This document shows, in pieces, positions 4,562-37,699 of a stretch of DNA of 64,000 nucleotides. Numbering within the stretch: the first letter of the stretch is position 1; every line of letters begins with the position of its first letter. The DNA lies in contig NZ_SMJZ01000002.1 of the NCBI RefSeq assembly GCF_004348345.1, positions 1 to 64,000 on the forward strand, in the 5' to 3' direction. This stretch comes from Nonomuraea longispora (lineage in GTDB: Bacteria; Actinomycetota; Actinomycetes; Streptosporangiales; Streptosporangiaceae). Made by a program: the position numbers and the translations under genes. The notes beneath the pieces are model-generated. The model saw only the letters and a list, made by a program, of their open reading frames with translations. It searched no databases and was not told the DNA's origin.

Positions 4562-5067
4562 ATGACGGCATTCTGGACGCCGCCCGCGACTGCGTGCTGG
4601 CCTACGGAGTGCGCAGGACGACGCTCACGGACGTGGCGCGCCGGGCGGGGGTGTCACGGATGACGCTCTACCGCCACTGGCCGGACGTGCGCACGCTGGT
4701 CGCCGACTTGATGACCAGGGAGTGGGTACGAGTGGTCGCGGAGCTTGACATGTCCGACCCTGTCCGCGCGGTCGTCGCGGGCGTGCGGGGGCTGCGCGCG
4801 CACCCGCTGTGGCGCAGGATCGTGGAGGTGGATCCCGAACTGCTGCTCCCCTACCTGCTCGACCGGCGCGGGGCGACCCACGAGGCCGTGCTGGAGGTGC
4901 TGGAGCGAGGATTCGGCGATGCGTGCAGGGCCAGAGCGGTGCTGCTGGTGGCCCAGTCGTTCCTGCTGTCGGCTCCGACCATGCTCGGCCCCGTGACCAT
5001 GGACGACCTCGACACCGAACTCGCCGCCTTGCTGGAGGGATACCTTGACCGACGAGAGAGCCGCTGA
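4543..5067 (+). CDS. TetR/AcrR-family transcriptional regulator
   Basis: A 174-residue protein with a classical N-terminal TetR helix-turn-helix. ILDAARDCVLAYGVRRTTLT is followed by DVARRAGVSRMTLYRHWPDV (about residues 9-50), including the Y-R-H-W signature after the recognition helix. The C-terminal ligand domain is short and helical. The gene is divergent from the AGPS-like enzyme, with about 31 bp between starts, and lies 51 bp before glpD, presumably in one operon. It most likely represses both flanking lipid genes in response to an acyl or glycerol-lipid ligand (inference). Confidence 0.88.
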   Translation: MKSIRHNDGILDAARDCVLAYGVRRTTLTDVARRAGVSRMTLYRHWPDVRTLVADLMTREWVRVVAELDMSDPVRAVVAGVRGLRAHPLWRRIVEVDPELLLPYLLDRRGATHEAVLEVLERGFGDACRARAVLLVAQSFLLSAPTMLGPVTMDDLDTELAALLEGYLDRRESR

Positions 5068-5118
5068 ACGTGCCGCCGCCGCGGTCGGCACCCGCAGCGC
5101 GGGAAAGGTGACGGGCTG

Positions 5119-6633
5119 ATGGCCGAGCCTGCCCCGGGGAGTTCGCTGAACGCCCGCAGACGGGGCCTTGAGCTGCTCCGGGTCGCCGAGGAGCGGGTGG
5201 ACGTGCTGGTGGTGGGGCTCGGCGCGACCGGCGCGGGCGCCGCGCTCGACGCCGCGTCCCGTGGGCTCCGCGTGGCCGCGATCGACGCCCACGACCTGGC
5301 GTTCGGCACGTCGAGATGGAGCTCGAAGCTCATCCACGGCGGGCTGCGCTACCTCGCCAGGGGGCAGGTCGGCGTGGCCTGCGAAAGCGCGGCCGAGCGT
5401 GGCGTCCTGCTCCGTACGACGGCTCCGCACCTGATCAAGGCGCACCCGTACGTGCTGCCGCTGACGCCCGCCGTCTCGCGGGGCCAGGAGCTCATGGCGG
5501 CGGCCGGCTACCGGCTGGGCGACGCGCTGCGGGCCGCCGCCCGCACCCCGCGACGCCTGCTGCCGGGCCCCACGCGGCTGACCGCGGCCCGCGCCCGCAC
5601 CCTCGCGCCCGTGCTCGACGGCGGCGGCCTGCGCGGCGCGCTGCTGTCGTGGGACGGCCGGGTGCTCGACGACGCGCGGCTGGTGGTGGCGATCGCGAGG
5701 ACCGCAGCCGCGCACGGCGCCCGCGTGCTGACCCGCTGCCGCGCGCTGCGGCTCACGCACGAGGGCGCCGACGTACGCGACGAGCTGACGGGCGAGGAGT
5801 TCGCCATCCGGGCCGGAGCGGTGATCAACGCGACGGGGGTGTGGGCGGGAACGCTGGATCCGCTGGTCAGACTGCGTCCGTCGCGCGGCACCCACGTCGT
5901 CCTGTCGCCGGGGACGCTGCCCGGGCTGATCGCGGGCATGCACGTGCCCATCCCGGGCGAGAGCAACCGGTTCGCCGTCGTGCTCCCCCAGCACGACGGC
6001 CGCATCCACGTCGGGCTCACGGACGAGCCGGTGGACGAGCCGGTGCCGGACGTGCCCGAGGCGCCCGAGGAAGACGTCAGAACGCTCCTGGAGGTGCTGA
6101 ACGGCGTTCTTGAGGCTCCGGTGACCAGAGAGGCGGTCGCGGGCGCGTACGCGGGCCTCAGGCCCCTCCTGGCGGCCGACGGGCGGACGGCCGACCTGTC
6201 CCGGAGGCACGCGGTGATGTCCGAGGGCAACGTCGTCACGGTCGTGGGTGGCAAGCTCACGACATATCGGCGTATGGCCGAGGACGCGGTGGAGCGGGCG
6301 GTCTCGGCCGCGAGGCTGCCGGGCCGGCGGAGCCGTACGAGGAAGATCCCGCTCGTGGGGGCGGGCCCGCAACCGGCGGGGGTGCCGGTGCGGCTGGCCG
6401 AGCGGTACGGCAGCGAGGCGGAGGCCGTGCACGAGCTCGTCAAGGCGCACCCAGAGGAGGCCGGGCTCGGCATCACCCAGGGCGAGCTGCTGTGGTCGGT
6501 CCTGCACGAGGGCGCGCTCGACGAGAGCGACCTGCTGGACCGGCGGACCAGGATCGGCCTGGTCGAGCAGGACAGGGAACGCGCACTGGCAGCGACACGG
6601 GACGTACTGCGCGGAACACCCCACGTCCGGTAG
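5119..6633 (+). CDS. glpD: Glycerol-3-phosphate dehydrogenase (FAD)
   Basis: A 504-residue flavoprotein oxidising sn-glycerol 3-phosphate to dihydroxyacetone phosphate at the membrane. It has the dinucleotide-binding motif VVGLGATGAGAALDA near residues 31-45, GTSRWSSKLIHGGLRYLARG near 63-82 (the family signature after the FAD fold), INATGVWA, and VVGGKLTTYRRMAEDAVE in the second half. The C-terminal GlpD cap domain is present. It follows the TetR gene by 51 bp in the same direction. Its product is the precursor for the AGPS reaction encoded divergently upstream, suggesting a local ether-lipid or glycerolipid module. Confidence 0.93.
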   Translation: MAEPAPGSSLNARRRGLELLRVAEERVDVLVVGLGATGAGAALDAASRGLRVAAIDAHDLAFGTSRWSSKLIHGGLRYLARGQVGVACESAAERGVLLRTTAPHLIKAHPYVLPLTPAVSRGQELMAAAGYRLGDALRAAARTPRRLLPGPTRLTAARARTLAPVLDGGGLRGALLSWDGRVLDDARLVVAIARTAAAHGARVLTRCRALRLTHEGADVRDELTGEEFAIRAGAVINATGVWAGTLDPLVRLRPSRGTHVVLSPGTLPGLIAGMHVPIPGESNRFAVVLPQHDGRIHVGLTDEPVDEPVPDVPEAPEEDVRTLLEVLNGVLEAPVTREAVAGAYAGLRPLLAADGRTADLSRRHAVMSEGNVVTVVGGKLTTYRRMAEDAVERAVSAARLPGRRSRTRKIPLVGAGPQPAGVPVRLAERYGSEAEAVHELVKAHPEEAGLGITQGELLWSVLHEGALDESDLLDRRTRIGLVEQDRERALAATRDVLRGTPHVR

Positions 6634-35644: not shown

Positions 35645-36538
35645 CTACGGCCCGGACAGCGCGGGTGCGGCGGTCAGGACGTCCCTCGCCAGAGCGAGGT
35701 CGCCGCCCAGCTCCGCGGGGAATGTCGCCGGCTCTCTCCTGCCGCCGAGCAGGAAGCAGAACGCCACCACGTCCGCCGTGATGCTCACGTCCGGAGTGCC
35801 GGGGGCGGTGTCCCCCACGCCCAGGGCGATGCGCCACTCGCCGCCGCCGTCGCCCGTCAAGGTCAGGTGCAGGGTGTGGCCCGCGCCTGTGTCCATCCCC
35901 GACAGGAGCATCGTCCAGGGCAGCAGGCGGGCGCACAGGTCGGCGGTCGGGCGGATGTGCTCCGCGACAGGGTCGGGCAGGCGGATCCTCGCCGTAGTCG
36001 CGGCGTCGGCCGTGTGGATCCAGGTCTCCAGGCCCCGGCCGAGGATGTGGTCGCCCAGCCTCGTCTCCAGGCCGTCGAGGGTGGCCGCCGTCGCCGGGTC
36101 CAGATCCGCCAGGTGGCGGCAGAGCGCGTCCGCCTGGGCCCGCCAGTCCCTGCGTGTCTGCTCGGGGCTGCGTGAGCGCTCGTACGCCTGCAGATCACGT
36201 GTACGGGCCAGCGAGTCGGTTGTGTCGATGGGCGGCCCGAGCACGGGGGCGCCGACGGAGGCGGCCAGCAGCCCGTCCTTGGCGGCCAGGTGCGCGACCA
36301 GCTCCTGCAGGGTCCAGCCCTCGACGATCACGCGCGACCAGTCGTCATCGGCGGCCTCGGCCAGCAGGGCGTCCATGGCGGCGACCCGGCCCGCGTACGG
36401 CTTCGCCCAGGCGGCGGTGGGCGCCGCGGGCCTGCGCCGGGCTCTGGCGCCGGCCAGGAGTTGGGGACGCAACGTATGGGCCGGCACCGCCGGTTCCGCC
36501 ATCAGCGCGTCCAGATAGAGACGCTCGACGGGGTCCAT
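35645..36538 (-). CDS. MDMPI/DinB-domain protein coupled to an ECF sigma factor
   Basis: A 297-residue protein. An N-terminal segment (MDPVERLYLDALMAEPAVPA, about 45 residues) precedes a mycothiol-dependent maleylpyruvate isomerase-like domain. The domain signature is RVIVEGWTLQELVAHLAAKD, with ILGRGLETWIHTADAATTAR later supplying Glu and His ligands. The C-terminal MDMPI domain ends in PDVSITADVVAFCFLLGGRR. Its ATG overlaps the stop of the ECF sigma gene by four bases, the position normally taken by an anti-sigma factor. There is no membrane segment. A cytoplasmic thiol- or metal-responsive anti-sigma role is inferred. Confidence 0.8.
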   Translation of the reverse strand: MDPVERLYLDALMAEPAVPAHTLRPQLLAGARARRRPAAPTAAWAKPYAGRVAAMDALLAEAADDDWSRVIVEGWTLQELVAHLAAKDGLLAASVGAPVLGPPIDTTDSLARTRDLQAYERSRSPEQTRRDWRAQADALCRHLADLDPATAATLDGLETRLGDHILGRGLETWIHTADAATTARIRLPDPVAEHIRPTADLCARLLPWTMLLSGMDTGAGHTLHLTLTGDGGGEWRIALGVGDTAPGTPDVSITADVVAFCFLLGGRREPATFPAELGGDLALARDVLTAAPALSGP

Positions 36539-37095
36539 CACACCTCTTCCTCCGCGAGCGCGTCCGCCAGGCGCCGCAGCGCCAGCCGGATGCGCGATTT
36601 CGCCGTGCCCTCGGGCATACCGAGTTCCTCGCCGACCTGCCGGTAGGTCCTGCCGCGGAAATAGGCGAGCTCGAGAGCCTCCCGCAGGCTGCCGGGTAAC
36701 GCCGTCACGGCCTGGCGCACCCGCTCGGCCTCGTCGGCGGCGAGCACCGTGTCCTCCGGCCTGGCGGGTTCGCGCTCGAACAACCGCGGCCCGAGCGCCG
36801 AGACCCGGCGCCGTTCCTCCGCGCGCACGTGATCGACCGCGCGCCGGTGCGCGATCGTGGCCAGCCAGGCGCGCAGGGTGCCTCGCTCCGGGTCGTAGGC
36901 CAGCGGGCGTTCCCAGAAGACCAGGAACACCTCCTGCGTGATGTCCTCGGCGATCACCCGGTCCCTGGTGACCCGGAGGGAGAGACCGAAGATCAGCGAG
37001 GAGAGCCGGTCGTAGATCTCCCCCAGAGCGGACTCGTCGCCGCCGACCACCCGCTGGTGCAGCACGCGGTCGTCGTACGGTGCCTCCACTGGCAC
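36538..37095 (-). CDS. ECF RNA polymerase sigma factor
   Basis: About 185 residues. Region 2 reads LSSLIFGLSLRVTRDRVIAE, DITQEVFLVFWERPLAYDPE and RGTLRAWLATIAHRRAVDHV, and region 4 reads LPGSLREALELAYFRGRTYR, QVGEELGMPEGTAKSRIRLA and LRRL, a SigK/SigJ-like pattern. The GTG at 37095 follows GGGAG with 5 nt spacing; an in-frame GTG at 37128 lacks a ribosome binding site. It is coupled to the MDMPI-domain gene and is divergent from an OsmC gene 179 bp away. Confidence 0.88.
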   Translation of the reverse strand: MPVEAPYDDRVLHQRVVGGDESALGEIYDRLSSLIFGLSLRVTRDRVIAEDITQEVFLVFWERPLAYDPERGTLRAWLATIAHRRAVDHVRAEERRRVSALGPRLFEREPARPEDTVLAADEAERVRQAVTALPGSLREALELAYFRGRTYRQVGEELGMPEGTAKSRIRLALRRLADALAEEEV

Positions 37096-37273
37096 CACAC
37101 TCCCGTTTGTTCCGGACCAAGGCGGCACGTGCGCCGCGACCCGAGCATGTCACTATTCGCCCGAAATGTAGAGCCGGATGAGGGGCAGATGTCACCGTGT
37201 GCCGGTGCGCCCTTTCCTGCGCGTGGCCTGGTGCGCGATAGGTTCGGAGATCCACGACGGAGGGAGCACCACC

Positions 37274-37699
37274 ATGGCCACCACTCGCACCGCCACCACC
37301 CAGTGGAAGGGCGCTCTGCTCAACGGCTCGGGCAGCGTCTCGCTCGACTCCTCGGCCGCCGGCACTTTCGAGATCTCCTGGGCGTCCAGGGCCGAGACTG
37401 CGGGCGGCAAGACGTCGCCGGAGGAGCTCATCGCGGCCGCCCACTCGTCGTGCTTCTCGATGGCGCTCTCCCACGGGCTGGCCGGCGCCGGCACGCCTCC
37501 CGCGTCGCTGCAGACCAGCGCCGACGTGACGTTCCAGCCGGGCGAGGGCATCACGGGCATCGTGCTGACGGTGAAGGGTCAGGTCCCCGGCATCACGGCC
37601 GAGCAGTTCCAGCGGGCCGCCGAGACGGCCAAGGCCACCTGCCCGGTCAGCAAGGCGCTGGCGGGCACCACGATCTCGCTCGACGCCGAGCTGCTCTAG
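37274..37699 (+). CDS. OsmC-family peroxiredoxin
   Basis: A 141-residue OsmC/Ohr fold protein: KTSPEELIAAAHSSCFSMAL contains the first catalytic Cys and TAKATCPVSKALAGTTISLD the second. These two reduce organic hydroperoxides. GGAGGGAGCACCACC precedes the ATG. Divergence from the ECF sigma gene suggests it is a target of that sigma factor. Confidence 0.92.
   Translation: MATTRTATTQWKGALLNGSGSVSLDSSAAGTFEISWASRAETAGGKTSPEELIAAAHSSCFSMALSHGLAGAGTPPASLQTSADVTFQPGEGITGIVLTVKGQVPGITAEQFQRAAETAKATCPVSKALAGTTISLDAELL

Follow-up and report, generated by a model that had tools for sequence, protein, structure and literature searches.

In Nonomuraea longispora (Actinomycetota, Streptosporangiaceae) a gene for an extracytoplasmic function (ECF) sigma factor overlaps one for a protein with a mycothiol-dependent maleylpyruvate isomerase (MDMPI) domain. 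Both lie within positions 1 to 64,000 of contig NZ_SMJZ01000002.1 (RefSeq assembly GCF_004348345.1), a stretch of 64,000 nucleotides called the window below, from a genome of 9.16 Mb in 465 contigs. Several described switches resemble the pair in part. RskA, which partners SigK in Mycobacterium tuberculosis, is a membrane protein, CnrY belongs to a membrane metal-resistance system, and RsrA, which partners SigR and is reportedly a mycothiol-linked thiol-stress anti-sigma factor, is a zinc-finger protein without an MDMPI domain. ChrR, the partner of RpoE (SigE) in Rhodobacter sphaeroides and of ECF11, is according to an entry in PMC8999054 soluble, with an N-terminal anti-sigma domain and a C-terminal metal-binding sensor. 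As the relevant passages of PMC7406223 describe it, helix 1 of an anti-sigma factor binds sigma4 and helix 4 binds sigma2, CnrY (class II) does both with two helices only, and helix 1 of the AS19-1 anti-sigma factors has the consensus HTLAGAYALDAL, ending LDAL. According to PMC8103513, a pair of cysteines provides further control of SigK. Some ECF19 members, for example Streptomyces albus WP_016472479.1, have a soluble anti-sigma factor according to an entry in PMC8999054 that cites the 2021 ECF reclassification; that system is likely of the same family as the window's, the entry itself mentioning neither a sensor domain nor the loss of a zinc finger.

At the N. longispora locus the layout is ChrR-like, the sigma factor is SigK-like, the candidate sensor is an MDMPI domain and the putative clamp is cut to two helices in this lineage. 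On balance it is probable, from the comparisons set out below, that the overlapping genes form an autoregulated module of an ECF sigma factor and a soluble anti-sigma factor, the latter made of a two-helix clamp and an MDMPI sensor. Zinc-finger relatives of the window protein resemble ChrR in sequence profile and, weakly, in fold, but the ChrR sensor is cupin-like and the zinc finger is lost in the window member. In contrast to RskA the partner here is soluble and carries an MDMPI domain, and in contrast to SigK the sigma factor has no cysteine at all. CnrY sets two helices on sigma4 and sigma2, as the window protein would, although here the two-helix form appears to be derived from a class I domain. 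With the mycothiol-dependent maleylpyruvate isomerase 2nsf the window protein shares fold and metal triad, but the match begins only at model residue 41 and the two N-terminal helices have no counterpart there. Since soluble anti-sigma factors are already tabulated for some Streptomyces ECF19 systems (in the entry of PMC8999054), the window's system is a variant and not a new kind. A literature search on ECF or anti-sigma factors with MDMPI, DinB or mycothiol, judged mostly from listings, gave no paper recognised as describing an MDMPI anti-sigma factor, and PMC3489674 matched via its references only.

Pairing of the sigma and MDMPI genes

The sigma gene (36538-37098, minus strand) is given a GTG start inferred from aligned relatives, with alternative starts at 37095 and 37089, and its stop overlaps the start of the MDMPI gene (35645-36538, minus strand, 297 amino acids) in the sequence TGATG. 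Its product carries Sigma70_r2 and r4_2 domains, and its closest solved chain is M. tuberculosis SigK (4nqw_A, E 8e-33, 116.8 bits, the next chain scoring 75.4); the curated SigK model is also its best NCBIfam model but stays under the cut-off (162 vs 226 bits). The MDMPI protein, a putative soluble anti-sigma factor, passes the cut-offs of MDMPI_N (45.9 vs 24.2 bits) and TIGR03083 (53.2 vs 50 bits) and falls under that of MDMPI_C (20.6 vs 29.5 bits). No membrane-like stretch was found in it, the top 19-residue Kyte-Doolittle mean being 1.31. The protein of the close relative Nonomuraea deserti is 93% identical to it.

In the genus, over 36 genomes counting the window's own, a close homologue (at least 71% identity) is present in 28 and not in 8. 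A locus scan with exact peptide patterns, which reaches close relatives only, yielded 52 named loci from Nonomuraea, Thermocatellispora, Planomonospora, Planobispora, Spongiactinospora, Sphaerisporangium, Acrocarpospora and Actinomadura; counts over these rows are not independent, many of them coming from close relatives, and some start codons were chosen by script. The sigma gene is the next gene upstream of the MDMPI gene, on the same strand, at every one of the 52 loci, and the two overlap or are separated by at most 5 nucleotides (nt) in 37, with a maximum gap of 290 nt at the chosen starts. Near the other MDMPI_N matches of the window's genome a similar sigma gene within 1.5 kb (E 1e-3) was found in none of 11 cases. 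Distances among the sigma and among the MDMPI proteins correlate at 0.95 (51 loci, L088 left out), a value that shared descent alone would also yield. By gene order and spacing the sigma and MDMPI genes are one unit.

The pairing extends to distant relatives. When 296 genomes of the class were searched with a distant homologue and the six best candidates per genome scored, matches at E 1e-8 turned up in at least 44 genomes and at least 13 of 114 genera. In the genus here called g20 an ECF sigma gene lies upstream of the MDMPI gene at 26 of 26 loci, with a 4-nt overlap in 20. Loci of same-genus paralogs have a sigma neighbour in 15 of 17 cases, there downstream and matched over about residues 8-93 only, and the remaining distant loci also in 15 of 17. 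Fifteen same-genus genomes (L120-L128, L130-L132, L134-L136) carry a second system with the order reversed, a gene for an HxxxCxxC-bearing MDMPI protein being followed by one that matches sigma region 2. Three MDMPI paralogs of about 40% identity (L118, L119, L170) have a helix-4-like N-terminus and no similar sigma gene adjoining, and could be orphan anti-sigma factors or enzymes. At L088 of Nonomuraea lactucae (5001-6031) the MDMPI match is split across two frames, with a repeated stretch. A plasmid search for the named members returned two records with weak, unannotated matches.

The N-terminal helices and the MDMPI domain

In the AlphaFold2 model of the window protein (mean predicted local distance difference test score, pLDDT, 93.9) two helices stand ahead of the MDMPI fold. 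The first (residues 3-13, 36500-36532, minus strand, pLDDT about 75) holds RLYLDAL and would be the counterpart of anti-sigma helix 1, with which it is equated because of its position and its LDAL motif, as in the AS19-1 consensus. The second (residues 24-34, RPQLLAGARAR, 36437-36469, minus strand) would be the counterpart of helix 4, to which it was matched by HHalign against zinc-finger relatives with a probability of 95.6, over a region that takes in a few residues of the start of the MDMPI domain. Mean conservation over 53 rows, the broken L088 included, is 0.86 for residues 5-12, 0.88 for residues 23-37, 0.41 for the linker between them and 0.73 for the MDMPI part. In Nonomuraea soli (L077) a long repeat of HPLPGG units follows the first N-terminal helix, and so the linker seems to tolerate insertions.

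The relatives indicate what this N-terminus was derived from. In g20 and most other relatives the MDMPI protein begins with about 90 residues holding HxxxCxxC, a motif found in 0 of 52 window-type rows vs 55 of 57 rows outside that type; this and the residue tallies below use a 110-row alignment from which L088, duplicate places, L118, L137 and L170 were removed, with the orphan L119 kept outside the group tallies. Pfam zf-HC2 scores above its cut-off in 6 of 7 zinc-finger relatives, and an NCBIfam anti-sigma model also matches 6 of 7 (E 6e-4 to 1e-8, all under the curated cut-off), the same-genus paralog L121 being the miss in both scans. A profile of ten zinc-finger N-termini (alignment A2) set against solved chains found ChrR (3e-5), RslA (6e-5), RsiW (0.005) and, weakly, RskA (0.13), and with the modelled zinc-finger-type domain the first 15 of 24 Foldseek matches were anti-sigma factors, all at E above 0.1. 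In Actinomadura craniellae (L094) the full zinc-finger form, modelled with helices at 3-16, 22-32, 36-53 and 60-72 and a short one at 82-88, stands beside a sigma factor 57% identical to the window's. Class I is recognised by a three-helix bundle followed by helix 4, and the window model has two helices only ahead of its MDMPI fold. From these alignments and models the window-type N-terminus is probably a class I anti-sigma domain stripped of its zinc-finger middle, with helices 1 and 4 left, and the MDMPI protein is probably a soluble anti-sigma factor. By eye, L182 and L183 have a helix-4-like start only, apparently an independent reduction.

The MDMPI fold itself (residues 41-294, 35657-36418, minus strand) has mycothiol-dependent maleylpyruvate isomerase as its nearest solved fold (Foldseek E 2e-7 for 2nsg and 4e-7 for 2nsf). 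VIA-align superposes it on 2nsf from model residue 41 over 218 residues (Z 15.0, root-mean-square deviation 4.3), and the zinc-and-mycothiol-bound mycothiol S-transferase 8f5v ranks 22nd with a Z of 10.9, which unrelated helical bundles can also attain. In the alignment to the 2nsf chain, H83, E171 and H175 fall on the H, E and H that we take to be its zinc ligands. H83, H175 and C261 are kept in 109 of 109 rows and E171 in 107, and triad and C261 are invariant in the 43-row alignment A1. R267 presumably corresponds to a catalytic arginine; the 109 rows have Arg there in 83 cases, His in 25 and Ala in 1. C202 is found throughout the 52 window-type rows and nowhere else, and C140 in 51 of 52 as well as in L094 and 4 of 14 group E rows. 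With this fold, three metal ligands and one cysteine near-invariant, the MDMPI domain is plausible as a sensor and, as far as such conservation goes, likely the cytoplasmic one. The window's genome encodes MshC of mycothiol synthesis (630 bits vs a cut-off of 485), and DinB-family mycothiol S-transferases conjugate electrophiles to mycothiol, as stated in a part of PMC4360819, so that a thiol or electrophile signal for the switch would be reasonable by analogy. Some 8 kb from the pair lies the gene of the TIGR03084-family MDMPI protein L001 (27227-28012, minus strand), the sole one of 11 other MDMPI genes to match the window protein by tblastn; it stands near a sulfite/nitrite reductase-type gene and a phosphoadenylyl-sulfate reductase gene.

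A sequence-only reading of the locus had proposed an ECF sigma gene coupled to a soluble protein of a normally metal-binding MDMPI/DinB fold, encoded in the anti-sigma position and acting instead of a zinc-finger anti-sigma factor. The coupling agrees with gene overlap, domain scans and hydropathy, the fold with the family scores and the retained ligands, and the anti-sigma position with the sigma gene directly upstream throughout the named loci and with the homology of the N-terminus. The last element holds in part: the window member does lack the zinc finger, but it is kin to zinc-finger anti-sigma factors. The reading also took the switch to sense thiol or electrophile state through mycothiol chemistry, a signal that may apply.

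The promoter motif and its recurrence

A SigK-type promoter-like element, TCATCC-N16-CGAATA, lies 56 nt before the sigma start (37154-37181, minus strand); CCATCC-N16/17-CGAATA is what we take to be the mycobacterial SigK consensus. In the degenerate form YCATCC-N16-CGAAYA the motif stands within 250 bp before the sigma gene exactly at 35 of 52 loci, and at 41 when one mismatch is allowed, compared with 0 (exact) and 0.0008 (one mismatch) in a shuffled control that preserved base composition only. A leaderless ATG start for the sigma gene at the conserved ATGCTCGGG was considered and dropped, being out of frame in the window when counted by hand.

Over the window's genome YCATCC-N15-17-CGAAYA occurs at 15 sites, the reversed-pattern control at 2. 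Thirteen of the 15, the site before the sigma gene included, fall inside some same-strand frame of more than 100 codons, L106 and L107 lying outside. Open reading frame context alone leaves such sites unsettled, and so recurrence across the genus was used as the criterion: YCATCC-N16-CGAATA was scanned in 34 genomes and three recurrent sites other than the module's own were inspected. One, before a gene that looks WecA/MraY-like by eye, is the coding end of the upstream gene, whose frame terminates there at 4 of the 5 loci inspected, and is present also in G001 and G014, both without the pair; the second lies inside a long frame (L192, L205); the third falls within the long frame at L108, which by eye looks like a cytochrome P450. 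Among the recurrent sites inspected the module's own is the only one with evidence of a conserved non-coding place. Because the motif recurs before the sigma gene and the other recurrent sites inspected are coding, the prediction, as far as one motif can tell, is autoregulation of the sigma/MDMPI module via TCATCC-N16-CGAATA and does not extend to a wide regulon.

Alternatives, proposed mechanism and meaning

Several results weigh against an autoregulated anti-sigma module. The profile comparison with zinc-finger relatives did not reach the first helix, and the window protein itself has no direct anti-sigma match in the domain libraries. The promoter motif, with one mismatch allowed, is absent at 11 of 52 loci, among them all five of Planobispora and Planomonospora, and before the sigma gene of the 26 g20 loci, of which L154 offers no upstream sequence, a looser form of the motif had no exact match. 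Within the candidate sensor, group D (the g20 genus) has His in place of R267 in 25 of its 27 members. C261 is found also in L001 and L002, two of ten aligned ordinary MDMPI proteins of the same genome, and so is not specific to a sensor role, which weakens its candidacy as the unique sensing cysteine.

One candidate for control by the switch is the divergent gene osmC (37274-37699, plus strand, 141 amino acids), for an OsmC-family peroxiredoxin (TIGR03562, 166 bits). The sequence-only reading had placed it facing the pair, as coordinates and strands bear out, and under the control of the switch, which now looks very unlikely. The gene does face the pair within 700 bp at 34 of 52 loci, every one from Nonomuraea once L047 ([Actinomadura] parvosata) is included in that genus, and at the distant L129/L179 an MDMPI gene, a sigma gene, apparently a small gene and one for a 67% identical OsmC run in a row on one strand. 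However, no sigma-type motif, even with one mismatch, lies within 300 bp before osmC on its own strand at any of 39 loci; at 5 of 52 loci, two from Nonomuraea, osmC is 1.8-3.4 kb off, and at 13 the fetched stretch does not contain it; and of eight same-genus genomes lacking the pair seven have this osmC, in all seven beside glgX and with no similar sigma gene in the 1.5-kb flanks. In other genera the divergent place is held by aidB, at eight of the 52 named loci and L181 (L084-L087, L089-L092 and L181, from Sphaerisporangium, Acrocarpospora, Spongiactinospora and one further genus of the family). At L078, the ninth named locus with aidB, another gene intervenes, and the identity of the aidB copy there is given by Pfam AidB_N at 214 bits. 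AidB fared no better as an alternative target, the motif-like matches on its strand having two mismatches (3 of 8 loci), and no aidB was found in the window's genome at E 1e-100. OsmC was thus rejected as a likely regulon member on motif, distance and glgX evidence, and osmC is probably, to judge from these loci, a neighbour only, outside the core switch. The genes for OsmC and AidB both count as stress genes, and a loose functional theme linking these neighbours is possible.

The MDMPI protein could instead be a detoxification enzyme that is the sigma factor's target, autoregulated with it and not binding it. It has the enzyme fold and a full metal site, its gene shares the operon under the sigma-type motif, and the electrophile conjugation described in PMC4360819 would be a fitting activity; yet relatives bear an N-terminal anti-sigma domain and the two helices are the best-conserved part of the N-terminus, and we consider this explanation improbable. 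The protein may also be enzyme and anti-sigma factor at once. Alternatively the anti-sigma role could stand while the MDMPI domain responds to something besides mycothiol chemistry, such as a metal or acyl-type metabolite, or has a structural role only, with release by proteolysis. That the DinB fold is common to proteins of many functions, that His takes the R267 position in group D and that the closest ordinary relative found is a member of the uncharacterised TIGR03084 family make this a serious possibility, if short of probable, against which stand the near-invariance of the metal ligands and C261 over distant families and the presence of a mycothiol synthesis gene.

Returning to the autoregulated sigma/anti-sigma module, beyond the gene pairing, domain homology, predicted fold, conserved residues and promoter motif that the loci themselves display, we infer binding, signal and release. 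By homology the two N-terminal helices would hold the sigma factor, one on region 4 and the other on region 2. Most likely, the MDMPI domain would be altered by a thiol-reactive electrophile, or by an adduct of mycothiol that forms or binds at the metal site, the altered domain would make the two-helix clamp release the sigma factor, and the freed sigma factor would transcribe its own operon from the TCATCC-N16-CGAATA promoter. A bolder and less likely form can be put forward tentatively, in which a zinc-finger class I anti-sigma factor has in one lineage been worn to a CnrY-like two-helix clamp, all sensing has moved to a mycothiol enzyme domain that is still catalytically competent, and whether its active site is occupied or has reacted directly sets sigma activity, as in a trigger enzyme.

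If the proposal is right, the series from a full zinc-finger anti-sigma domain to a two-helix clamp shows which parts are dispensable, and the signal of this SigK-like branch would be directly testable in a soluble two-protein system. Actinobacteria would then have a means of tying transcription directly to an enzyme pocket of the mycothiol type, with which the cell may sense chemical stress without intermediates.

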